A DNA stretch of 64,000 nt, from contig NZ_JAEHFJ010000002.1 in the NCBI RefSeq assembly GCF_016406085.1, positions 186,001-250,000 on the forward strand. The letters run 5' to 3'. The translations under genes and the position numbers were made by a program. Positions 1 to 9,161 of this stretch are shown one piece after another. The stretch's first letter is position 1. Every line of letters starts with the position of its first letter. A model generated the notes under the pieces. The model had not been told where the DNA came from. It ran no database searches and saw only the letters and a list, made by a program, of their open reading frames with translations. Source of the DNA: Aureibaculum flavum. Lineage in GTDB: Bacteria > Bacteroidota > Bacteroidia > Flavobacteriales > Flavobacteriaceae.

Positions 1-105
1 AATCAACTGTTCTTTTTTTGTGAATACTTTATCCAAAAAACCATTTCGTTTCCAATTGCTTTGGCTTTTGGCTATATCTAAATCAACTACATCATTACCA
101 ATCAT
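1..105 (-). CDS. 4'-phosphopantetheinyl transferase, N-terminal part (cut by window edge)
   Basis: Only the first 35 codons are inside the window. They read MIGNDVVDLDIAKSQSNWKR and continue to the edge. The opening IGNDVVDL block is the N-terminal signature of the 4'-phosphopantetheinyl transferase superfamily, which moves the phosphopantetheine arm of CoA onto a serine of an acyl carrier protein. Its ATG overlaps the TGA of the upstream acyl carrier protein gene by 4 bp (ATGA), so the two are translationally coupled. The natural substrate is probably that carrier protein. The catalytic region lies outside the window, so the family call rests on the N-terminus and context. Confidence 0.75.
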   Translation of the reverse strand, partial: MIGNDVVDLDIAKSQSNWKRNGFLDKVFTKKEQLI

Positions 106-356
106 TTTTCCGATAATTTAGTTTCTATAATTGCCATAGCTGCTTTTACAGAGAGCATTTTCTCCATGGCTTCATTGTCAATTTCTATATCAAATTCATC
201 CTCTACATCTAAAATAACATCTACCAAATTGGCAGAATTAATTTTTAAATCATTTATAAAATCGGTATCCTCATTTAAATTTTCAAAAGCAACTTCATCT
301 TGAATATAAGGTTTTACAATTTTTTTTAAAGATTCTATAAGTTCGTTTTTTTTCAT
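102..356 (-). CDS. acyl carrier protein of the lipid/polyketide locus
   Basis: This is an 84-residue acidic four-helix carrier protein. Ser41, in the segment KINSANLVDVILDVEDEF, sits where the phosphopantetheine-bearing serine of ACPs is found, followed by the usual acidic helix II. The DSL motif of primary-metabolism AcpP is replaced by NSA, which suggests a specialised carrier. The reading frame is open further upstream to 407, but that extension would overlap the ketosynthase gene. The ATG at 354-356, 16 bp after the ketosynthase stop, gives a normal ACP length. It is followed by a coupled phosphopantetheinyl transferase. It most likely shuttles acyl intermediates among the neighbouring ketosynthase, dehydratase and enoyl reductase and hands a starter to the type III PKS. 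Confidence 0.85.
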   Translation of the reverse strand: MKKNELIESLKKIVKPYIQDEVAFENLNEDTDFINDLKINSANLVDVILDVEDEFDIEIDNEAMEKMLSVKAAMAIIETKLSEK

Positions 357-372
357 TTTATTATCGTTAAAT

Positions 373-1644
373 TTAAATTTCAAATTTCTTAAAAATGACA
401 CACGCATTTACATCTCCAAATCCGAAACTGGCTTTCGCTATCAAATTTAATTCTTTTTGAATGCATTTCTTTGGAATTTTATCCACATCAATAATTTTTA
501 CAATTTCAGGATGCACATCATCACAATTGATCGTTGGGACAATAAAACCTTCTTTCAATTGAATTATAGATGCCACACTTTCTATAGCTCCCGCTGCTGC
601 TAAACAATGGCCAATCATCGATTTAGTGGATTGGATATATGGAAAATTAGTACCCGCTCTATTTAATGCCGTAACCCAATTCTCAATTTCATCTGGATCT
701 TTAATGGTTGCGGTTAAATGTCCGTTAATTAAATCGATGTCATTAGCGTCTATATTTGCGTCGTCAATAGCATCTTTAATACATCGTTGGACTGCCTCTG
801 CATTTGGAGCCGTCATTGTACCGCCATTACGCTGTCCGCCAGAATTTACGGCTCCACCTAAAACTTCGCCATATATTATAGCATTCCGTTCTAAGGCACT
901 TTCCAAAGATTCTAACATCAAAGCTCCTGCCCCACTACCTGGCACAAAACCTGAAGCTGCTGCACTCATAGGTCGAGAACCTTGTTCCGGACTATCATTA
1001 TGCTTATAAGTCATAACACGCATTGCGTCAAAGCCACCCCAAAGGTATGGACCATGGTCACTACAACTGCCAACTAACATTCGTTTCGCTTTTCCATTTT
1101 TTATCCGTTCAAACCCCATCAAAATGGCTTCTGTACCTGTTGAACATGCTGATGAATTGGTACTCACTTGATTACCTAGCCCTAACATACCACCAAGATA
1201 CGCACTAACACCACTCGCCATGGTTTGAGCAACCACTGTACTGCCTAAACGCCGTACCTGTTTATCATCTAGTTTGTAAATAGCTTCTCTAAATTTTTCT
1301 ACTCCCGAAGTGCCTGTTCCGAAAATGGTTCCACTATCAAAATCCACATTTTCATCGTCCATTGATAACCCGGCATCTTTCCAAGCATCAATTCCTGCTA
1401 TGCATCCATATAAAATCCCGGAACTATTAAAATTTCGCAATTGCAACTCGGAAAAATATTCTGATTTTTTTTCTTCCGAAATAGTAGGAATTCCACCAAT
1501 ACAACAAGAAAAATTCAAGGCGGATAATTCTTGACGAAACCTAATTCCAGATACCCCATTTTTGATGGCATTGGTAAAATCACTAAGACCTACTCCATTA
1601 GGAGCAACAACACCAAGACCAGTTATAACAACACGTTTTTTCAT
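373..1644 (-). CDS. beta-ketoacyl-ACP synthase, FabF/KAS II-like
   Basis: This 423-residue protein is a decarboxylating condensing enzyme that extends an acyl chain with malonyl-ACP. The thiolase-fold triad is visible: Cys167 in NSSACSTGTEAI, His309 in INGHLTATIKDP, and His346 in KSMIGHCLAAAGA with Lys341. The C-terminal FGFGDVNA matches the FGFGGTNA block of the family. The usual NAHGTST around the first histidine is altered to NGHLTAT, so it belongs to a divergent, probably specialised branch rather than housekeeping FabF. Its ATG overlaps the stop of the upstream dehydratase gene by 4 bp, and the ACP gene follows 16 bp after it. Together they form the FAS-II half of the locus. Confidence 0.88.
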   Translation of the reverse strand: MKKRVVITGLGVVAPNGVGLSDFTNAIKNGVSGIRFRQELSALNFSCCIGGIPTISEEKKSEYFSELQLRNFNSSGILYGCIAGIDAWKDAGLSMDDENVDFDSGTIFGTGTSGVEKFREAIYKLDDKQVRRLGSTVVAQTMASGVSAYLGGMLGLGNQVSTNSSACSTGTEAILMGFERIKNGKAKRMLVGSCSDHGPYLWGGFDAMRVMTYKHNDSPEQGSRPMSAAASGFVPGSGAGALMLESLESALERNAIIYGEVLGGAVNSGGQRNGGTMTAPNAEAVQRCIKDAIDDANIDANDIDLINGHLTATIKDPDEIENWVTALNRAGTNFPYIQSTKSMIGHCLAAAGAIESVASIIQLKEGFIVPTINCDDVHPEIVKIIDVDKIPKKCIQKELNLIAKASFGFGDVNACVIFKKFEI

Positions 1645-2075
1645 TTTATCATGCCTGAAATAGAGCCTCTACATACCAATTCATTAGAAGCATTTAACAT
1701 TTTTACTTTACATTTCAATTTATTAAATCTAAAATATTCTTTCTCTGATATCACGGTAACTTTTTCATTAGGATACACGGGAAGGTAAAAATCAACAACC
1801 TGAGATGTCAACGCAATTTTAGGTCTATTATCTTCAGAAATATTGTTAGCCATCAAGTGAATTCCTAAACAAACTACACCAATCTGAGCCATAACTTCTG
1901 TTAAAATAACACCTGGCGTTATCGGGTTGTCTTTAAAATGACCTTTATAAAAATATTCGTCGCTTTTAAAGGTATAGCTCCCTTCAATTCCATTTTCAGA
2001 AACAGCAACGAGCTCTTCAACAAACAAAAAAGGATGCTGGTATGGCAAGTTCGATATAATTTCTTCTGGAGTCAT
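1641..2075 (-). CDS. 3-hydroxyacyl-ACP dehydratase, FabZ-like hotdog fold
   Basis: This 144-residue hotdog-fold protein should dehydrate beta-hydroxyacyl-ACP to trans-2-enoyl-ACP. The family landmarks are present: YQHPFLFVEEL near the N-terminus and GHFKDNPITPGVILTEVMAQ, which supplies catalytic His46 and Glu60. The 14-residue spacing is the same as in E. coli FabZ. The gene overlaps the ketosynthase start by 4 bp and begins 3 bp after the MepB-family gene stops. The paired enoyl reductase lies about 1.1 kb upstream in the same direction. It is shorter than some FabZ proteins only at the termini, and no key residue is missing. Confidence 0.85.
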   Translation of the reverse strand: MTPEEIISNLPYQHPFLFVEELVAVSENGIEGSYTFKSDEYFYKGHFKDNPITPGVILTEVMAQIGVVCLGIHLMANNISEDNRPKIALTSQVVDFYLPVYPNEKVTVISEKEYFRFNKLKCKVKMLNASNELVCRGSISGMIK

Positions 2076-2078
2076 ATT

Positions 2079-2588
2079 TTAGTTTTCATTTAGCATAAAA
2101 AGCTCCTGTGCTTTAGCTACATCTATTGTACCATCCGTTATCTTTAAAAAATAGTTCAGTTGCCATTTTTGTGTTCGTATGGCTTGCTTGTTTAGAGCCT
2201 CATCCCACGGTGGATAAACTCTAAATCCTCTTTTACCTTCTTTAACTTTAGTAGACACTATTCCTTTTGAAACAAGTACTGACTTCGGAAAAACAAACTG
2301 TCCTATTTCATTTTCTTTTACCGTCGAAATAATCACCAAATCAAAATCATCATCAACATGAAACGGAGCTATTGGACCATTAAATACTCTTTTCCACAAT
2401 GTAACAAATTGCCCCACTTTTGTTGGTGTAATTTTCGCCTTTCTATATAGAACTATTTTTTCATTAATTGTAAATCGGCATGCCCAATACTCCTTACTTT
2501 CTTCTTCAAATTCAGGGTTACTAAAATCGAATTTCATAGAAACCAGTTCTTGAATTAAAGAAAGTTGGTTTATTATATTTTTATTCAT
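2079..2588 (-). CDS. MepB-family protein
   Basis: This 169-residue soluble protein has no signal peptide. The central stretch AKITPTKVGQFVTLWKR, the later acidic DDDFDLVIIST, FVFPKSVLVSKGI and GKRGFRVYPPWDEA are the conserved blocks of the MepB family, named after a gene in the Staphylococcus aureus mepRAB multidrug operon. The biochemical role of MepB is unknown to me. Here it sits inside the FAS-II/type III PKS operon, 3 bp before the dehydratase start and 17 bp after a small lipoprotein gene. It may be a passenger inserted into the operon or a protective factor. No MepA transporter or MepR regulator is nearby. Confidence 0.75.
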   Translation of the reverse strand: MNKNIINQLSLIQELVSMKFDFSNPEFEEESKEYWACRFTINEKIVLYRKAKITPTKVGQFVTLWKRVFNGPIAPFHVDDDFDLVIISTVKENEIGQFVFPKSVLVSKGIVSTKVKEGKRGFRVYPPWDEALNKQAIRTQKWQLNYFLKITDGTIDVAKAQELFMLNEN

Positions 2589-2605
2589 GAACTCAACTTA
2601 AATCT

Positions 2606-2911
2606 TTATTTACTAGAGAATCTACCATTAAACTTATTTTCAATAAAAATCAAATAATGGGACATATTTAAAATATCATTGTTTCCTTTAATTTCCAAAA
2701 CAGCATATCTTACCTCATCATTCTCAGATTCAATTCCATTAGCCCAATCAACAATTACATAATCAGGTTGATTTTCTTTTACGGTCTGAATGCTAGTTCC
2801 GCTATCTAACGAATCCATCCATTTAATTGTATCATTATAGTAGTTATGACAACTAGTGTTTAATACCATGATAAATAGAAAAATTGAATAACACTTTGAT
2901 ACTCTTTTCAT
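2606..2911 (-). CDS. small lipoprotein, function unknown
   Basis: This 101-residue protein starts MKRVSKCYSIFLFIMVLNTSC. A basic N-terminus, a hydrophobic stretch and a lipobox ending in Cys21 mark it as a lipoprotein. The mature part has no motif I recognise and is rich in acidic and aromatic residues. It lies 17 bp before the MepB-family gene and could be co-transcribed with it. The 232-bp gap upstream of it, between the enoyl reductase gene and this one, contains a GC-rich hairpin and AT-rich sequence. The two genes therefore look like a cassette placed between the halves of the lipid operon. Confidence 0.55.
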   Translation of the reverse strand: MKRVSKCYSIFLFIMVLNTSCHNYYNDTIKWMDSLDSGTSIQTVKENQPDYVIVDWANGIESENDEVRYAVLEIKGNNDILNMSHYLIFIENKFNGRFSSK

Positions 2912-3006
2912 TTTATTTTATTTGATTAAACATTAATCAGACAAACTTTAAAAATAACCACCCCGCCCAAAATATTATTTGTTAAATTTGAACTATCAAT
3001 TGGGCA

Positions 3007-3029
3007 CCCCTCCTTGAAAAAAGGAGGGG
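3007..3029. repeat. short GC-rich intergenic palindrome (copy 1)
   Basis: A perfect 9-bp inverted repeat, CCCCTCCTT / AAGGAGGGG, with a GAAAA loop, stands out in an otherwise AT-rich gap (2912-3143) with no gene. The same CCCCTT-GAAAA-AAGGGG core recurs at 8523-8539, and a related hairpin is at 58566-58581. It has no T-tract on either side, so it looks like a dispersed palindromic element rather than a terminator. The rest of the gap is AT-rich with runs of TAATAA. Confidence 0.6.
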
Positions 3030-3143
3030 AATTATTACGTTTCTATAATAATAATAGTAATATAATAATAATTTTCAAAAATTTAGAGCTATCCATAGTA
3101 CACATCCACCTCCTTCGAAGAGTTCTTTCCTTTAAATACTCCA

Positions 3144-3938
3144 TCAACTTAAACGCTCACCACCATCTACCGGAATGATACAACCGTTAATCCACCTTGC
3201 TTCGTCTTTACATAATAAGTATACTACGTTAGCGACATCTTCTGGCGTAGTTAAACGCTTAAATGGGCTTCGCAATAAGGTATGCTCTTTTATCTTTTCA
3301 CTTCCTGGTATTGCTCTTAATGATGCTGTATCTGTAACTCCAGCTTGTATACAATTTGCTTTAATACCAAATGGAGCGAATTCCAATGCTATATTTCTGG
3401 TTATGGCTTCTAAAGCCGTTTTCGCTGCAGAAACCGCCGCATAATTTGGCCATGGTTTCGAATTCCCTTCACTGGTAAAACTTATTATTCTACTATCTTC
3501 GGCAAATAAATCAACATCAAATAGAGCTTTTGTCCAATCAAATAAACTAAAGGCCATCGCATCTAAGGTTAAGTGAAAATCGTCATTTTTTAAGGTAGGT
3601 TTATCATAAGCAACCATTGGTTTTAAATTTCCTTTGGCAACACTATGTACCATCACTTTCAACTTTCCTTTATCACCTAATTTATCGATAATCTTTTCAA
3701 TAATATCAGTTCTTGATGCTGGTTTAAAAGCATCTTCATTAAAAGAAAGTAACGCTATCCCCTCTTGTTGAATTACCAAAAATTCCTTTTCAATTTGAGG
3801 CATTTCTGAACGTCTGTTTCTATGGACAATTATAATATTAAGTCCATGTTTTGCTAATTTTTTAGCCGTTGCTAAGCCTAGGCCACTAGAACCTCCTAAA
3901 ATCAATGCCCATTCGTTATGTTGAAATTCTTTTACCAT
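3144..3938 (-). CDS. enoyl-ACP reductase, FabL/FabI-like SDR
   Basis: This 264-residue short-chain dehydrogenase has a glycine-rich NAD(P) motif, GGSSGLGLATA, at residues 15-25. The active-site pair is Tyr166 and Lys173. The six-residue spacing between them is the hallmark of enoyl-ACP reductases of the FabI/FabL/FabV-like SDR branch; ordinary ketoreductases have three. The C-terminal half, with LEAITRNIALEF, GVTDTASLRAIPG and the final PVDGG, resembles Bacillus FabL. It would reduce trans-2-enoyl-ACP in the cytoplasm. Its start overlaps the type III PKS stop by 7 bp, so the two are made together. It could supply the saturated acyl chain used as starter. Confidence 0.8.
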   Translation of the reverse strand: MVKEFQHNEWALILGGSSGLGLATAKKLAKHGLNIIIVHRNRRSEMPQIEKEFLVIQQEGIALLSFNEDAFKPASRTDIIEKIIDKLGDKGKLKVMVHSVAKGNLKPMVAYDKPTLKNDDFHLTLDAMAFSLFDWTKALFDVDLFAEDSRIISFTSEGNSKPWPNYAAVSAAKTALEAITRNIALEFAPFGIKANCIQAGVTDTASLRAIPGSEKIKEHTLLRSPFKRLTTPEDVANVVYLLCKDEARWINGCIIPVDGGERLS

Positions 3939-4984
3939 TTTAATAAAACTCTTTGTGCTGAAAAACCCGGACCAAAACTCAACATTAATCCAATATCGCC
4001 TTTTGGTAATTTTTTATTCATAAACCGTTCTAATACATATAAAACGGTTGCACTAGACATATTTCCATATTGTTTCAATACATCTTTTGTATCATCTATG
4101 TTTTTACCTAATGTGCCAAATAACTCTTCAACGGTTTGTACTATTTTTTTTCCTCCAGGGTGAAAAATAAGATGATCTACATCTTCTATCTTTAATTTAT
4201 TTCTTTCTAAAAACGGATGTACAATAGCAGGAAAATGATTGGCAATTGTTTCCGGCACCGACTTATCTAAAATCATTTGCAGACCTGAATTCCGCAATTT
4301 AAAACCCATCATTTTTTCGGCGTCATAAAAATGATACATGGCATCATCTAAAATTTCTGGACCTTCTTCATTTTCATAAGAAGATAAGATAACAGAAGCT
4401 GCTCCGTCTCCAAAAATAGCAGCACTCACAATATTAACCATAGAATAATCGTCTAGCTGAAAAGTAGCTGTAGGCGATTCAACTGCAATTACTGCGGCCC
4501 GCTTATTTGGATTCGCTTTTAAAAAGTTCTTCGCATAAATAATACCTGAAACTCCTGCGGCACATCCCATTTCGGTTACTGGTAACCGAACAATATCTTG
4601 ACGCATTTTTAAACGATTAATTAAATAGGCATCTAAAGAAGGAATCATTATGCCCGTGCAACTGACGGTAATTATAAAATCTATATCCTCAGCATTTAAT
4701 TTCGCTTTATTCAATGATTTTTGCAATGCAGACTCTGCCAATTTGATAGACTCTCTGCTATAAATATCATTCTTTTCTTCAAAGGATGAATTTAAAAAAA
4801 CTTCATGAGCATCCATAATGGAATAGCGTTTATCTACGCCTGCATTTTCAAACAACTTTATTACTTTTCTTTGAAAACGTTCCTCTTGACCTGTTAACCA
4901 AGTTTTTATATATGGTAAAATCTCCTTGGTAGTTCTCGTATATTGTGGTAGTTGTTTTGCAACTGCTGTTATTTTTACACTCAT
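3932..4984 (-). CDS. type III polyketide synthase (chalcone/stilbene synthase superfamily)
   Basis: This 350-residue homodimeric-type condensing enzyme accepts an acyl starter and extends it with malonyl-CoA before cyclisation. All three catalytic residues of the type III PKS family are present: Cys141 in TEMGCAAGVSG, His275 in LIFHPGGKK and Asn308 in QYGNMSSATV. The C-terminal SFGPGFSAQ matches the family's GFGPG loop. The Asn rather than FabH-like context, together with GCAAG, separates it from KAS III. Its neighbours are a methyltransferase overlapping its start by 4 bp and an enoyl reductase overlapping its stop. Alkylresorcinol, alkylpyrone or alkylquinone-type products are likely by analogy with bacterial type III PKS operons; the real product is not visible from sequence. 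Confidence 0.92.
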   Translation of the reverse strand: MSVKITAVAKQLPQYTRTTKEILPYIKTWLTGQEERFQRKVIKLFENAGVDKRYSIMDAHEVFLNSSFEEKNDIYSRESIKLAESALQKSLNKAKLNAEDIDFIITVSCTGIMIPSLDAYLINRLKMRQDIVRLPVTEMGCAAGVSGIIYAKNFLKANPNKRAAVIAVESPTATFQLDDYSMVNIVSAAIFGDGAASVILSSYENEEGPEILDDAMYHFYDAEKMMGFKLRNSGLQMILDKSVPETIANHFPAIVHPFLERNKLKIEDVDHLIFHPGGKKIVQTVEELFGTLGKNIDDTKDVLKQYGNMSSATVLYVLERFMNKKLPKGDIGLMLSFGPGFSAQRVLLKW

Positions 4985-5694
4985 TTATTTTGAATTATCC
5001 ACTGAAAACGAAAAGCCCATTTCCAACTAATTTCACTTTTAACATTCAATTCATTAGACATTTCCTCCAACTCTTTTCTTTTAAACCCACGTAAAACAGA
5101 AGTGAGTCCATCCTGTTTCACCATATGGTTTTTTATAAACAAACCCAATCCTTTAAATAAATAATAGGCCATTTTATGACGGTGCAAATCATTTACAAGA
5201 ATTCCTAATTTTGCCGTTTTTAGCAGATCTGAAAGCAATGTTATTAATTGCTCTTTTTTAAAATGATGCAAAAACAACGTTGCCAACACTAAATCATATT
5301 TTAACAACTTGAATTCTTCAGAAAAAATATCTTGTTGAAGATACATAATTTCAGGATAATCTACAGATAATTTCTGAGCATACTCAATTGCACATGCATT
5401 GGCATCGACGCCAATAAGTTTAAAATTAAAATGATTCTTTTTTAGATATCGTGCAACAATTCGTAACATATCACCATTACCACAACCTAAATCAATTATA
5501 GTTAGTGGTTTGTGTTTTGGATACTTTTTAAGTACCTTTTTTAAACCATTTAACGTAACACTATTTCCCCCCAACCATTTGTTGATATTGGCTAACTGAT
5601 CTAAGGTGTTTTCAAGAATAGCACCATCAATAGAAAAATCATCCATAATTTCTATGGCATCAGTTCTGTATTTTGTATTTATAAAAAAGCTCAT
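4981..5694 (-). CDS. SAM-dependent methyltransferase (class I)
   Basis: This 237-residue cytoplasmic protein has the Rossmann motif I IIDLGCGNGDMLRI at about residues 71-84 and motif II/III features VDANACAIEYA and LVLATLFLHHF. It should transfer a methyl group from S-adenosylmethionine to a small acceptor. It is coupled on both sides by 4-bp ATGA overlaps, to a flavin oxidoreductase upstream and to the type III PKS downstream. That makes a polyketide-derived ring the most plausible acceptor (O- or C-methylation). The trio of type III PKS, methyltransferase and flavin hydroxylase parallels the Streptomyces srsA-srsB-srsC phenolic-lipid operon. Methylation position cannot be predicted. Confidence 0.82.
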   Translation of the reverse strand: MSFFINTKYRTDAIEIMDDFSIDGAILENTLDQLANINKWLGGNSVTLNGLKKVLKKYPKHKPLTIIDLGCGNGDMLRIVARYLKKNHFNFKLIGVDANACAIEYAQKLSVDYPEIMYLQQDIFSEEFKLLKYDLVLATLFLHHFKKEQLITLLSDLLKTAKLGILVNDLHRHKMAYYLFKGLGLFIKNHMVKQDGLTSVLRGFKRKELEEMSNELNVKSEISWKWAFRFQWIIQNK

Positions 5695-6818
5695 TCTACG
5701 TTAAGGGGTTTACCATGCGTTTGTTTTATAATTTTAGGTAATAAACTTGGAAAGCTTTGCAGACCATATAACATCAATTCAGAAAATGCTTGCATCCTGA
5801 ATAATTTAGCAATGAAGTGCCCCGTTTTTAATCGTGACTTAAATTCTTCATTCCATTTTTTTTCATAATTTTTTTCTAATACTTGTCTAGACATTTTATT
5901 ATCCAAAAAATCAATGATCAATTCAGATGCGACCTTAGCTCCATGAATAGCCATACTCATACCATTTCCGCACAATGGGTGAATCATACCCGCTGTATCA
6001 CCACACATAATGATATGGTTATCAACTGGATTTTTTGATGAAAATGAAACTTGACTTATTGTTAAAGGCTTTTCAAAAACGGAAATAGAATTTTCAAAAA
6101 TCTCCTTCAAGTGTGTATTTTTATTAAGTACTTTTTGTTGAAAATCATCAATGTTTTTATACTTTTTAAAGGCTTTATAATTCGTAATATAACACAAATT
6201 AACGTGATCATTTTCTACTTTTGACACACCGCAATACCCTCCTTTAAAATTGTGAAGTGCTACCAAATCGTCTGGGAAATCACCTTTTACATGTGTTTTT
6301 ACCGCCAAATAAGGCGAATCATTTTTTATAAAATCTCTTTTTAATTGCACATCAATAGCTGAGCGTTTCCCATAAGCACCGATAACCACTTTAGAAATAT
6401 ATTTCTTTTGAGTCTTTGTGAAAACAGAGAATTCATCGTTTTGAAAGGAAATATCAACAACAGCATCTTTACTAATTGTTACGCCATTTTCAATAGCTTT
6501 TTCTGCCAACAACTGATCCAAGGTATATCTACTAATTCCGAAGCCACCTAACGGTAATCTAGTTTCTATTAATTTACTATCTACGGTGCTAATTGCAAAC
6601 TTTGTAATTTTCTTAGCTCCATACTCATGTGGATTAACTTCCAAAAAACTCAAATAAGGCAAGACCTCATTTGATATGTACTCACCACAGACTTTATGTT
6701 TAGGATACTCATTTTTTTCAATGACTGTTACATGAACTCCCTGCTTTGAAAGGTGTATGGCACTAACCAACCCCGCCAATCCTCCACCAACAATGATTAC
6801 CTCTTTTTTGTGACCCAT
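5691..6818 (-). CDS. FAD-dependent oxidoreductase, geranylgeranyl-reductase/hydroxylase type
   Basis: This 375-residue flavoprotein of the p-hydroxybenzoate hydroxylase fold has an N-terminal FAD motif, VIIVGGGLAGLVSAIHLSKQ. The CGEYIS segment follows, typical of geranylgeranyl-reductase-like members. The second FAD motif near residue 280 reads CGDTAGMIHPLCGNGMSMA. It may hydroxylate an aromatic ring or reduce double bonds of a lipid. It starts 2 bp after the YceI-like gene and overlaps the methyltransferase gene by 4 bp. In this context ring hydroxylation of a type III PKS product (towards a quinone) is the leading idea; double-bond reduction of an isoprenoid side chain is the alternative. 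Confidence 0.8.
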   Translation of the reverse strand: MGHKKEVIIVGGGLAGLVSAIHLSKQGVHVTVIEKNEYPKHKVCGEYISNEVLPYLSFLEVNPHEYGAKKITKFAISTVDSKLIETRLPLGGFGISRYTLDQLLAEKAIENGVTISKDAVVDISFQNDEFSVFTKTQKKYISKVVIGAYGKRSAIDVQLKRDFIKNDSPYLAVKTHVKGDFPDDLVALHNFKGGYCGVSKVENDHVNLCYITNYKAFKKYKNIDDFQQKVLNKNTHLKEIFENSISVFEKPLTISQVSFSSKNPVDNHIIMCGDTAGMIHPLCGNGMSMAIHGAKVASELIIDFLDNKMSRQVLEKNYEKKWNEEFKSRLKTGHFIAKLFRMQAFSELMLYGLQSFPSLLPKIIKQTHGKPLNVE

Positions 6819-6820
6819 AC

Positions 6821-7348
6821 CTATTTTTTACCCGTGTAATCTACTTGAATTTTAACGGTATCTGATAGTACCCAACTGCTCGTTCCAACACCATAATCTA
6901 ATCGGTTTATGGAAAAATTTGATTTTATAGCAATGGAATTTGCTGATTCCGTTATTTCTAATGGAACTACAATTATTTTTGTTGTTTTCCTAATCGTTAA
7001 ACTTGCAGTTAATAGATATTTATTAGATGCGTTTTTTTCTATTTTTTTTGAACTTAACTTTATGAAAGGAAAATTTTCAGCTTCAAAATAATCCGCTGTG
7101 AGCAGGTGTTTATCTCTTTTTATTATATCTGTATCTATTGAAGTCACATTAATTGTTCCTTTGATATAACTATTTTCTAAATCATTTGATTTAAAATTAG
7201 TCGCAATTTTCACATCACTAAAAAATCCATCAACATTAAACCCCATGTTTTTTATCTTAAAATCTACCGAAGCTGAATTTTGAGTTAGTTCTTGTGATGA
7301 TATACTAAACACTGACAAACAAAAAACAATAATTAATTTAAGTTTCAT
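6821..7348 (-). CDS. YceI-family secreted lipid-binding protein
   Basis: This 175-residue protein has a Sec signal peptide (MKLKLIIVFCLSVFSISSQ). The mature domain has the YceI lipocalin-like pattern: VDFKIKNMGFNVDGFFSDVK early, a central strand block with KRDKHLLTADYFEAENFPFI, and a terminal VQVDYTG-like strand (KIQVDYTGKK). YceI proteins bind long amphiphilic chains such as polyprenyl compounds in the periplasm. Sitting in a lipid-biosynthesis operon, 10 bp after a flavoprotein gene and 2 bp before another, it may carry or store the pathway product outside the inner membrane. That transport role is inference. Confidence 0.85.
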   Translation of the reverse strand: MKLKLIIVFCLSVFSISSQELTQNSASVDFKIKNMGFNVDGFFSDVKIATNFKSNDLENSYIKGTINVTSIDTDIIKRDKHLLTADYFEAENFPFIKLSSKKIEKNASNKYLLTASLTIRKTTKIIVVPLEITESANSIAIKSNFSINRLDYGVGTSSWVLSDTVKIQVDYTGKK

Positions 7349-7358
7349 AATTCATAAT

Positions 7359-8468
7359 TTATTCCATTAGTGATGCTAATTCCTTACCTACCAAAAAACC
7401 GATAGCAATACCCATTCCGCCGAGTCGAACACCGCAAACCACATGATTACTAATTGGTTTTACTATTGTTTTTTTCTGATTTCCAACCCCCATAATTCCA
7501 CTCCATCTGTGATCAATTTCTACTTTTTTATTAGGTAAAATTATAGTCGATAAAATTTCTTCCAGCTTATTCTGTATCATTTCAGTTTGTCCGAACGTGG
7601 TGGTTTCTTCAGTTTTAAAGTCTAAGTTTCTTCCTCCACCAAGTAAAATTCTATTATTAATGTTTCTAAAGTAAAAATAGCCCTTATCCAGGTGAAAAGT
7701 ACCTCTAATAGATAAATCTTTAATCGGTTTGGTAATTAGCACTTGTGCTCTTGCGGGCTTAACTTCTAAGTTTAGCAATTGGTTGGCAAAACCGTTTGTA
7801 GCAATCAATAATTTATGAGTCGAAAACTCTCCAATATTTGTTTTTACGGTAACACAATTTGCTGCTTCTATGTAACTTTCAACGTTGCAACTATTCAGTA
7901 TTTTAATTCCCTTCATTTGAATTTTCCGAAGTAGTTCTGACATCATCTTACCCGTATCAATTTGCCCCTCAAACGGATTGAAAGCAAGCTTTTTATTTAC
8001 TTTTAAAAAATGAAACGCATCATCATTAAAGGAAAAAACCGCTTTTTTAAAAATATCCTGCAAAAGACCATTTACTTTATCTTTATTTGAATAACATTCA
8101 TCAAAGACATTATTATCATTAAATAATTCATATCCCCCTAATTGCTGATAATCGAGTGCTTTATCACCCACTATTTTTCTCAGTAAGTTTAATCCTTCCC
8201 ATCGTTTTTGAACCAAATCATAAACTTCTTGTTCTGTATGCGATTTTAAATCGTCAATAATTTCAGACAAACTTCCAAAACAAGTAAAGCCCGCATTTTT
8301 CGTACTTGCCCCATAAGGCAACATGCCCCTTTCCAAAATAAGAATAGTTGCTTTTGGATATTTTTCATTCAAAAACAAGGCCGTACTTAAACCGACAATA
8401 CCACTACCTACAATGGTAAAATCAATATTTGTAAACCATGATTTTATTTCCCAATAACTTAAGTTCAT
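7359..8468 (-). CDS. FAD-dependent amino-acid-oxidase-type oxidoreductase (DAO family)
   Basis: This 369-residue protein has the FAD-binding motif VGSGIVGLSTALFLNEKYPK near residue 20 and a C-terminal MGVGNQ...GVRLGGMGIAIGF block typical of DAO/glycine-oxidase-like enzymes. These oxidise secondary or primary amines, or act as related dehydrogenases, with FAD. It is the first gene of the minus-strand run and ends 10 bp before the YceI-like gene. It may be part of the lipid operon, or an independent gene that shares its promoter region. The gap to the divergent tag gene (8469-8597) carries a GC-rich palindrome but no clear promoter motif. The substrate is unknown. Confidence 0.75.
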   Translation of the reverse strand: MNLSYWEIKSWFTNIDFTIVGSGIVGLSTALFLNEKYPKATILILERGMLPYGASTKNAGFTCFGSLSEIIDDLKSHTEQEVYDLVQKRWEGLNLLRKIVGDKALDYQQLGGYELFNDNNVFDECYSNKDKVNGLLQDIFKKAVFSFNDDAFHFLKVNKKLAFNPFEGQIDTGKMMSELLRKIQMKGIKILNSCNVESYIEAANCVTVKTNIGEFSTHKLLIATNGFANQLLNLEVKPARAQVLITKPIKDLSIRGTFHLDKGYFYFRNINNRILLGGGRNLDFKTEETTTFGQTEMIQNKLEEILSTIILPNKKVEIDHRWSGIMGVGNQKKTIVKPISNHVVCGVRLGGMGIAIGFLVGKELASLME

Positions 8469-8522
8469 TTTTTAAAGATAAGGTAATTATTAGAATTCCA
8501 ACCCCCTCCGCCTTCGGCAACT

Positions 8523-8539
8523 CCCCTTGAAAAAAGGGG
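8523..8539. repeat. short GC-rich intergenic palindrome (copy 2)
   Basis: CCCCTT / AAGGGG with a GAAAA loop repeats the core seen at 3007-3029. A second small inverted repeat (GCCTTCGGC) lies just before it. The element sits between the divergent flavoprotein and tag genes. No T-tract follows, so termination is not its obvious role. Confidence 0.55.
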
Positions 8540-8597
8540 TGGAACCAACGGAGCATTACCAATTAAAATTTCTATTTTAGTAAAAATTTTAGATTAA

Positions 8598-9161
8598 ATG
8601 GATAAAAACAGATGTGCTTGGTGCGGCAATGACCCCTTATATATGGCATACCATGATGAAGAATGGGGTGTCCCCGTTTATGATGATGCAAAATTATTTG
8701 AATTTCTAGTATTGGAAACTTTTCAAGCGGGATTGAGTTGGATCACAATTCTTAAAAAGCGAGAAAATTTCAGAGTAGCATTTGACAATTTTGATTATAA
8801 AAAAATAGCCAACTATGGTGAAGATAAATATGAATCTTTACTTCAAGATGCTGGAATTATTAGAAACAAATTAAAAATAAGAGCCACCATTGCTAATGCA
8901 CAAGCCTATATGGAAATTCAGAAAGAGTTCGGTTCTTTTTCAGATTATATTTGGGAATTTACCAATGGGAAACCCATAAAAAACAAACACAAAAGTATGT
9001 CTGATGTCCCTGCAACAACAGAATTATCTGATAAACTATCTAAAGATCTAAAAAAACGCGGATTCAAATTTGTTGGCAGCACCGTTATCTATGCAAACAT
9101 GCAAGCCACAGGTATGGTGAACGATCATGTTGCAGATTGTTTTAGATATAACGAAGTATAG
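8598..9161 (+). CDS. tag: DNA-3-methyladenine glycosylase I
   Basis: This 187-residue monofunctional base-excision repair enzyme removes 3-methyladenine from alkylated DNA. The N-terminal RCAWCGNDPLYMAYHDEEWG and the C-terminal GMVNDHVADCFRY are diagnostic. Cys6, His19, His177 and Cys181 match the four zinc ligands of E. coli Tag, shifted by two residues. The conserved LETFQAGLSWITILKKRENF substrate-pocket block is intact. It is a single gene, divergent from the flavoprotein gene on its left. A heptamer minisatellite begins 4 bp after its stop codon. Confidence 0.96.
   Translation: MDKNRCAWCGNDPLYMAYHDEEWGVPVYDDAKLFEFLVLETFQAGLSWITILKKRENFRVAFDNFDYKKIANYGEDKYESLLQDAGIIRNKLKIRATIANAQAYMEIQKEFGSFSDYIWEFTNGKPIKNKHKSMSDVPATTELSDKLSKDLKKRGFKFVGSTVIYANMQATGMVNDHVADCFRYNEV

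Follow-up and report, generated by a model that had tools for sequence, protein, structure and literature searches.

Which lipid is made by an operon in which a type III polyketide synthase (PKS) gene is followed by genes of fatty-acid synthesis? This question is raised by the window analysed here, a stretch of 64,000 nucleotides from Aureibaculum flavum (Flavobacteriaceae; contig NZ_JAEHFJ010000002.1, positions 186,001 to 250,000). At its beginning, a minus-strand operon combines such a PKS with a methyltransferase (MT), a flavin enzyme, and a partial set of type II fatty-acid synthase (FAS-II) genes. An earlier note, made from the letters alone, had read the stretch 1-8468 as a type III PKS operon with its own "mini FAS-II", probably belonging to an undescribed pathway. 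In our assessment (probability about 0.6), the operon encodes a dedicated phenolic-lipid pathway, whose product would be an acyl-ACP-fed, methylated, and hydroxylated phenolic lipid or an alkylquinone of the envelope.

Organization of the operon

The operon is transcribed from the minus strand in the order FMO-MT-PKS-ER-(101-aa ORF, MepB-like ORF)-DH-KS-ACP-PPTase (ORF, open reading frame), with a DAO-type gene and a yceI-like gene upstream. Its main genes, in order of transcription, are the following:

5691..6818, minus strand: FAD enzyme (FMO) with an aromatic hydroxylase/halogenase-like fold (PF01494, Foldseek)
4981..5694, minus strand: S-adenosylmethionine (SAM) methyltransferase (MT; methyltransferase domains)
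3932..4984, minus strand: type III PKS with Cys141-His275-Asn308 (chalcone/stilbene synthase N- and C-terminal Pfam domains)
3144..3938, minus strand: FabL-like enoyl-ACP reductase (ER) with Tyr-X6-Lys
1641..2075, minus strand: FabZ-like dehydratase (DH) with His46 and Glu60 (PF07977)
373..1644, minus strand: FabF-like ketosynthase (KS) with Cys167-His309-His346
102..356, minus strand: acyl carrier protein (ACP), 84 aa from its likely start (PF00550)
1..105, minus strand: 5' part of the phosphopantetheinyl transferase (PPTase) gene, which leaves the window (full gene C12:185494-186105; PF01648, 1.4e-11)

All eight genes that the earlier note had named were present in this run, the PPTase with just 105 bases inside the window. 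The stretch 1-8468 also spans genes that it had not named, those for the YceI protein, the DAO-type FAD oxidoreductase, the MepB-like ORF, and the 101-aa ORF. Its numbering of the PKS triad was exact by alignment, and the 4-bp overlaps that it had reported were located by coordinates at four gene pairs (FMO/MT, MT/PKS, DH/KS, and ACP/PPTase); PKS and ER overlap by 7 bp. The ACP gene probably starts at base 356, giving the 84 aa found in its relatives, and not at base 407.

Conservation of the operon in Flavobacteriaceae

The PKS search covered 299 species of Flavobacteriaceae, each represented by a single genome and that of the window (G000) among them, at a threshold of E 1e-40, outside which more distant type III PKSs fall. 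Matches were obtained in 123 of the 299 genomes, and 122 of these 123, at 56-100% identity, carried this PKS type (carriers hereafter); the remaining match (G063) was 32% identical and lay in an unrelated gene setting. The closest named relative by PKS was Aureibaculum luteum SM1352 (99%). A strain-specific or rare locus was accordingly rejected, since the PKS orthologue occurs in 122 of 299 species.

About 18 kb around the PKS were fetched from 80 other genomes, namely 79 of the 121 other carriers plus G063. Leaving out the G063 locus (L094) and adding that of the window gave a set of 80 loci. Genes were scored as belonging to a locus if they lay on the same strand within 6 kb of the PKS. By this rule FMO, MT, and PKS were found in 80/80 loci, KS and ACP in 78, DH in 77, ER in 72, and PPTase in 34. 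A second set, consisting of the 80 best loci among those carrying an organism name (all close relatives, in genomes partly shared with the first set), showed the same order, with FMO in 78, MT and DH in 76 each, KS in 74, ER in 73, and ACP and PPTase in 72 each. Six named loci lacked KS: in four, less than 1.6 kb of contig followed the PKS, and in L228 and L257 about 9 kb followed and still none was present. In the first set, L057 and L070 had neither KS nor ACP at the locus, and a KS was found elsewhere in the genome (the match in G161 with one stop codon). Gene order was thus conserved in both sets of 80 loci.

Neighbouring genes were closely packed. Median gaps were -4 bp for FMO-MT (72/75 at or below 0), MT-PKS (52/74), DH-KS (56/74), and ACP-PPTase (26/30), 0 for YceI-FMO (6/10), and 2 for PPTase-MMPL (3/7). 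Pairwise distances followed those of the PKS most closely for KS (Mantel r 0.78, 78 loci), FMO (0.74, 80 loci), and MT (0.68, 75 loci), and less so for DH (0.57), ER (0.57), and ACP (0.49); the value for a neighbouring E1 gene was 0.56 (50 loci).

Dedication of the fatty-acid synthase genes to the PKS

The KS was searched for in the same 299 genomes at E 1e-110; the genome-wide co-occurrence covers this gene only, and G063 was scored as PKS-negative. The operon KS was present in 121/122 PKS carriers and in 0/177 other genomes (Fisher p 6e-85, kinship not corrected). The genome of the window holds a separate FabF on contig C4, which scored 602 bits against an NCBIfam cut-off of 493.75; the operon KS reached 281 bits and fell short of it. 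Further ketosynthases of this genome lie at C1:570-612 kb, near DarB. The KS, ACP, and DH of the operon all scored below the NCBIfam housekeeping cut-offs.

The earlier note's proposal of a dedicated FAS half therefore held up: KS and ACP stand beside the FMO-MT-PKS trio in 78/80 loci, the KS is restricted to PKS carriers, and a separate FabF exists. Relatives do not commonly carry the trio without FAS genes, nor, judged by the separate FabF, is the operon half the only housekeeping set. The analysis defines a core gene set in which KS and PKS are gained and lost together.

The catalytic residues of these proteins were intact: Cys167-His309-His346 of the KS in 78/78 rows, the serine of the ACP in 72/72, Glu60 and His46 of the DH in 76/76 each, and Tyr-X6-Lys of the ER in 72/72. 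Tyr-X6-Lys is the motif of enoyl-ACP reductases, as against Tyr-X3-Lys in ketoreductases. Among solved structures, the best match of the ER was the enoyl-ACP reductase 3oic (E 4e-26); against the NCBIfam FabL model it scored 149 bits, short of the cut-off of 328.

The type III PKS and the proposed pathway

The Cys-His-Asn triad of the PKS was invariant in 81/81 aligned rows, one of them being L094, the unrelated PKS with 32% identity. Its nearest solved relatives were Pks11 (1e-50), THNS (1e-44), and CylI (1e-43) by sequence, and Pks11 and CylI by fold (Foldseek, query TM 0.80-0.85, 25-28% identity; model pLDDT 80, with two loops below 50). Pks11 accepts medium to long acyl chains (PMC6274091), CylI accepts acyl chains (PMC8086630), and the PDB titles describe CylI as solved with an acyl substrate and a resorcinol product. 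In a tree whose only references were CylI, Pks11, THNS, and an Ectocarpus PKS, and which had long branches, 30 operon PKSs formed one clade (100/100). Pks11 fell outside this clade and the L094 PKS grouped with THNS, in a tree whose outgroup of two FabH-fragment rows lay on very long branches and was implausibly placed. In the PKS, the position three residues ahead of the catalytic His (residue 272, window 4169-4171) holds Leu in 78/81 rows and Trp in the aligned Pks11 and CylI.

The FMO model (pLDDT 82) was closest in fold to phenol-acting enzymes, the nearest being a flavin brominase and 3-hydroxybenzoate 6-hydroxylase at 15-19% identity (Foldseek).

From these data we infer every chemical step, the way in which the intermediates flow, and how the product is transported, as follows. 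The operon PPTase, or another one where the locus has none, would arm the operon ACP, on which KS, DH, and, where present, ER would assemble or complete a fatty acyl chain; the ketoreductase and the malonyl transferase needed for this would be borrowed from the housekeeping FAS-II. The acyl-ACP would then prime the type III PKS, and the malonyl units that it adds would be cyclised into a ring carrying the alkyl chain. Methylation of this ring by MT and hydroxylation by the FAD hydroxylase-like enzyme would give a methylated phenolic lipid or alkylquinone, and YceI, or in other genera a lipocalin with an OmpA lipoprotein or an MMPL exporter, might carry the product to the envelope. Sequence does not decide between resorcinol, quinone, and pyrone.

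Several observations weigh against this pathway. Regarding the gene set, a FabG-like query (L153, tblastn) detected no ketoreductase at the 80 loci, matching only the ER, in 71/80; therefore, keto reduction must come from elsewhere and the cycle cannot turn on the operon's own genes. The ER was missing in 8/80 loci, including both same-genus relatives there, and in 7/80 named loci, all seven of which keep KS. The PPTase was not found at 46/80 loci, although its family is so divergent that members may have escaped detection. Regarding co-occurrence, no KS was found genome-wide in one PKS carrier (G121), 5/121 KS matches were interrupted by a single stop codon, and L257 lacked KS in spite of the 9 kb of room after its PKS. 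The functions of individual enzymes are also loosely bounded. Fold matches of the FMO were at 12-20% identity across the 50 listed, so that reductase, halogenase, and hydroxylase are all possible, and its top NCBIfam match was a geranylgeranyl reductase family, below cut-off; in the planctomycete work, too, the role of the FAD oxidoreductase stayed open (PMC10896814). Since the PKS is 25-28% identical to the nearest solved folds and forms its own clade, its starter is weakly constrained. Finally, the lipocalin-OmpA pair follows an E1 gene without PKS in 4 of 17 genomes (L188, L191, L197, and L204).

The genomes of the eight ER-less loci and G374 were searched at 1e-30, and no ER orthologue was found anywhere in them; as a control, 4/4 genomes with ER at the locus were matched, and 5/20 genomes were matched overall, the fifth being G028. 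The ER is thus dispensable. A contrast exists within one genus, A. luteum (L210) having the ER and A. marinum (L212) lacking it, which constitutes a natural experiment on this gene. ER-less operons also occur in several Winogradskyella species and relatives (L264, L265, L269, L282, L254, and L226), and ER-bearing ones in the same genus, a pattern of repeated ER loss or gain. The "mini FAS-II" of the earlier note therefore stands as to its KS, DH, ER, and ACP genes, but it is partial, lacking a ketoreductase throughout and the ER in 8/80 loci.

These gaps lead to the alternative that survives best, although we regard it as doubtful: instead of an ordinary saturated chain, KS-DH-(ER)-ACP would supply on the ACP a starter that is short, unsaturated, or unusual in some other way, and ER-less species would yield an unsaturated version of the product. 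Loci without ketoreductase, and the eight without ER in genomes that hold no orthologue, are consistent with it, and KS/DH sets without ER are known from aryl polyene pathways. The ER is nevertheless kept in 72/80 loci with its motif intact in every row, and a housekeeping enoyl reductase could replace it where it is absent.

An unlikely variant, which shares the same flow, is that the PKS lactonises its chain to an alkylpyrone that is then methylated and oxidised; these alternatives are not all mutually exclusive. It is favoured by the top solved relative, Pks11, being an alkylpyrone synthase. In Azotobacter, a single residue shifts the product from resorcinol to pyrone (PMC6274091), so that overall sequence does not tell the two apart; the residues concerned are Trp281 of ArsB and Gly284 of ArsC. 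CylI, a resorcinol former, however, scores nearly equally by fold, the FMO resembles enzymes acting on phenol rings, and the combination of PKS, MT, and FAD oxidoreductase is associated with resorcinols in planctomycetes and with quinones in Streptomyces (PMC10896814, PMC9927152).

We consider it very improbable that the PKS uses malonate to make a small aromatic compound of the DpgA or phloroglucinol kind, with the FAS genes serving another purpose. DpgA was the strongest NCBIfam match of the PKS, but its 181 bits missed the cut-off of 425, the near-obligate co-occurrence with KS and the acyl-primed enzymes among the nearest solved folds argue otherwise. DpgB-D were looked for only among the operon proteins, by means of Pfam and NCBIfam. 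Practically no weight is left for the FAS-like genes being a housekeeping set that happens to lie beside the trio: they belong to ordinary FAS-II families, but the separate FabF on C4 (602 versus 494 bits), the missed cut-offs of operon KS, DH, and ACP, and the 0/177 PKS-less genomes with operon KS refute it for the KS in this sample.

Returning to the dedicated phenolic-lipid pathway, we tentatively extend it to the family: many Flavobacteriaceae species might make a hitherto unseen outer-envelope lipoquinone or methylated phenolic lipid by a type II FAS/type III PKS hybrid. In such a hybrid the chain would be built by a split-off FAS-II on a private ACP and pass straight from it to the PKS, and its saturation would depend on whether a single gene is present. 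Delivery to the outer membrane would have a route of its own, through YceI, lipocalin-OmpA, or MMPL.

Occurrence outside the family

A phylum-level PKS search covered 392 genomes. Among the matches listed, PKSs of more than 65% identity outside Flavobacteriaceae came from four genomes (G374, G426, G657, and G533) of two other families of the class, and the remaining outside matches were at most 36% identical. Three of these outside loci were fetched (L168, L169, and L170); their PKSs were 71-74% identical, and they held FMO, MT, PKS, DH, KS, ACP, and PPTase (MT and DH of L170 detected by tblastn), with ER in 2/3. Finding the operon whole in other families suggests transfer of the entire set, and its presence in the two families is likely due to horizontal transfer.

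Near 17 more distant PKSs (30-36% identity; 12.6-19 kb fetched), KS, DH, and ACP were found in 0/17. L187 contains PKS-MT-FMO, and L181 a distant short-chain dehydrogenase/reductase gene on the opposite strand. Several distant PKSs adjoin a gene of the isoprenylcysteine methyltransferase family (Pfam on one), a neighbour annotated likewise in a Stenotrophomonas and a Rhizobium plasmid. A PKS on a Streptomyces plasmid (34% identity) had an FMO-type match within 6 kb; neither KS, DH, nor ACP was found among ORFs longer than 100 aa within 6 kb, a length that ACPs usually do not reach. The FMO itself matched 22 plasmid records, of which two were inspected, from Bernardetia (41%) and Hymenobacter (35%). 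No PKS was annotated within 8 kb of either, in a gene table that is incomplete, and the FMO family therefore seems broader than the pathway.

Neighbouring genes and other features

The remaining features of the window are the following:

7359..8468, minus strand: DAO-type FAD oxidoreductase (PF01266, 1e-37), 10 bp upstream of the YceI gene
6821..7348, minus strand: YceI-family secreted lipid-binding-type protein (PF04264), 2 bp upstream of FMO
3003..3029, no strand assigned: hairpin without T-tail in the ER-DH interval (-17.1 kcal/mol, z -3.3), for which no function is claimed
2606..2911, minus strand: 101-aa ORF between ER and DH, with zero Pfam/NCBIfam matches, seen in 2/80 loci
2079..2588, minus strand: MepB-like ORF between ER and DH (PF08877, 7e-51), seen in 2/80 loci

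A DAO-type gene lay within 6 kb in 18/80 loci and is probably a neighbour, not a core gene. Lipid-handling genes often adjoin the operon: YceI, lipocalin with OmpA lipoprotein, or MMPL exporter. YceI was found immediately 5' of FMO in 10/80 loci and an OmpA-type lipoprotein gene in the same place in 47/80; a lipocalin-like gene was recognised in 49 of the 80 loci, and an OmpA gene likewise in 49. The best solved relatives of YceI are polyisoprenoid-binding proteins by name.

An E1 2-oxoacid dehydrogenase gene adjoins 50/80 loci and was present in 17 of 25 PKS-less genomes. It resembled a supplier of a branched-chain starter, but it keeps its other neighbours (SUI1 and 2OG genes) in 15 of these 17. 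Two of the four PKS-less genomes with E1 followed by lipocalin-OmpA look like operon losses: in L197 (G028) a leftover ER follows the pair, and in L191 (G029) a TerC gene does, which also follows the operon in the same-genus locus L065.

A protein of about 146 aa, hydrophobic by eye and with no Pfam match, is encoded on the operon strand in 19 loci (e.g., L093:5333-5773), directly 3' of ACP in 12/19 and of PPTase in 3/19. Next 3' of the PPTase gene in the genome of the window is an ORF of 147 aa that weakly matches the GreA/GreB C-terminal domain. Apart from the window, the same-genus locus L096 was the only one of the 80 with a match to the MepB-like gene; a PPTase at 2079-2588 was considered and rejected, the ORF there being MepB-like. 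PADLOC gave no result for either ORF between ER and DH. Scans of positions 1-8700 found 41 promoters versus 40.2 expected, and 6 terminators versus 3.8 expected (standard deviation 2.1).

Comparison with known systems

In two surveys of Flavobacteriaceae, T3PKS clusters made up 10.74% and 9% of the predicted biosynthetic clusters (PMC10734526, PMC7440613), shares that do not state how many clusters are of this gene set. Genome miners are thus already aware of this type of locus. In the open-access literature, to which the search was confined, no paper was found on the product of the gene set or on its link to a FAS-II kit. The "undescribed" pathway of the earlier note is thus to be qualified: within the literature searched, what looks undescribed is the logic of the gene set and its product, while T3PKS clusters are widely reported in the family. 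An envelope lipid or alternative quinone, if such is the product, would matter to a widespread bacterial group.

The flexirubin/dialkylresorcinol route (DarA/DarB), an aromatic lipid pathway of Bacteroidota, is represented in the genome of the window by DarB, which lies on another contig (C1:607217). Against the DarB model the operon PKS scored 30 bits, short of the cut-off of 550. Both DarB and PKS occurred in 34 genomes, PKS only in 88, DarB only in 24, and neither in 153 (Fisher p 0.003, kinship not corrected), a mild positive association that gives no suggestion of one replacing the other. The earlier note's view that this is not the flexirubin route is therefore supported by location and by distribution. 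Another DarB-like match of this genome (G000:C12:572994-574100) lies in an open frame of 622 aa and scored below the curated cut-off; long frames of this kind exist in several other genomes. Loci pairing a type III PKS with an isoprenylcysteine methyltransferase-family gene, which we take to be of the BpsA-BpsB type, share the PKS family; they differ in having no KS, DH, or ACP match in the 17/17 fetched.

The Azotobacter vinelandii arsABCD operon, for phenolic lipids of cysts, likewise unites a dedicated FAS, type III PKS, and a PPTase (ArsD), and the ACP of ArsA passes the acyl chain directly to ArsB and ArsC (PMC6274091, PMC4824345). This precedent, invoked by the earlier note, stands for a dedicated FAS feeding PKSs, but ArsA is a multidomain type I FAS (PMC4824345). 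The operon of the window, in contrast, has a partial FAS made of separate enzymes and a single PKS, and it also contains MT and FMO.

The trio has its counterparts in srs of Streptomyces griseus and in pkq (mycobacterial and Streptomyces), where type III PKS, methyltransferase, and hydroxylase/oxidoreductase lead to alkylquinones; in Streptomyces, this gene combination goes with polyketide quinones (PMC9927152). These systems differ in that the available text of that source mentions no FAS or ACP genes, and in that Pks11, the one actinobacterial reference of the tree, fell outside the operon clade; the likeness to them is one of gene content. The hierridin operon hidABC of cyanobacteria and the planctomycete alkylresorcinol operons also combine MT, oxidoreductase, and type III PKS (PMC10896814, PMC8086630). 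They differ in their order, MT-oxidoreductase-PKS, and in the accessible part of these reports no FAS genes are mentioned; the likeness is one of description. The planctomycete PKSs made alkylresorcinols, which became singly methylated once MT and oxidoreductase were added (PMC10896814), and in 'Saltatorellus ferox' genes for a lipoprotein and for lipid/isoprenoid binding adjoin the PKS, as they do here (PMC10896814).

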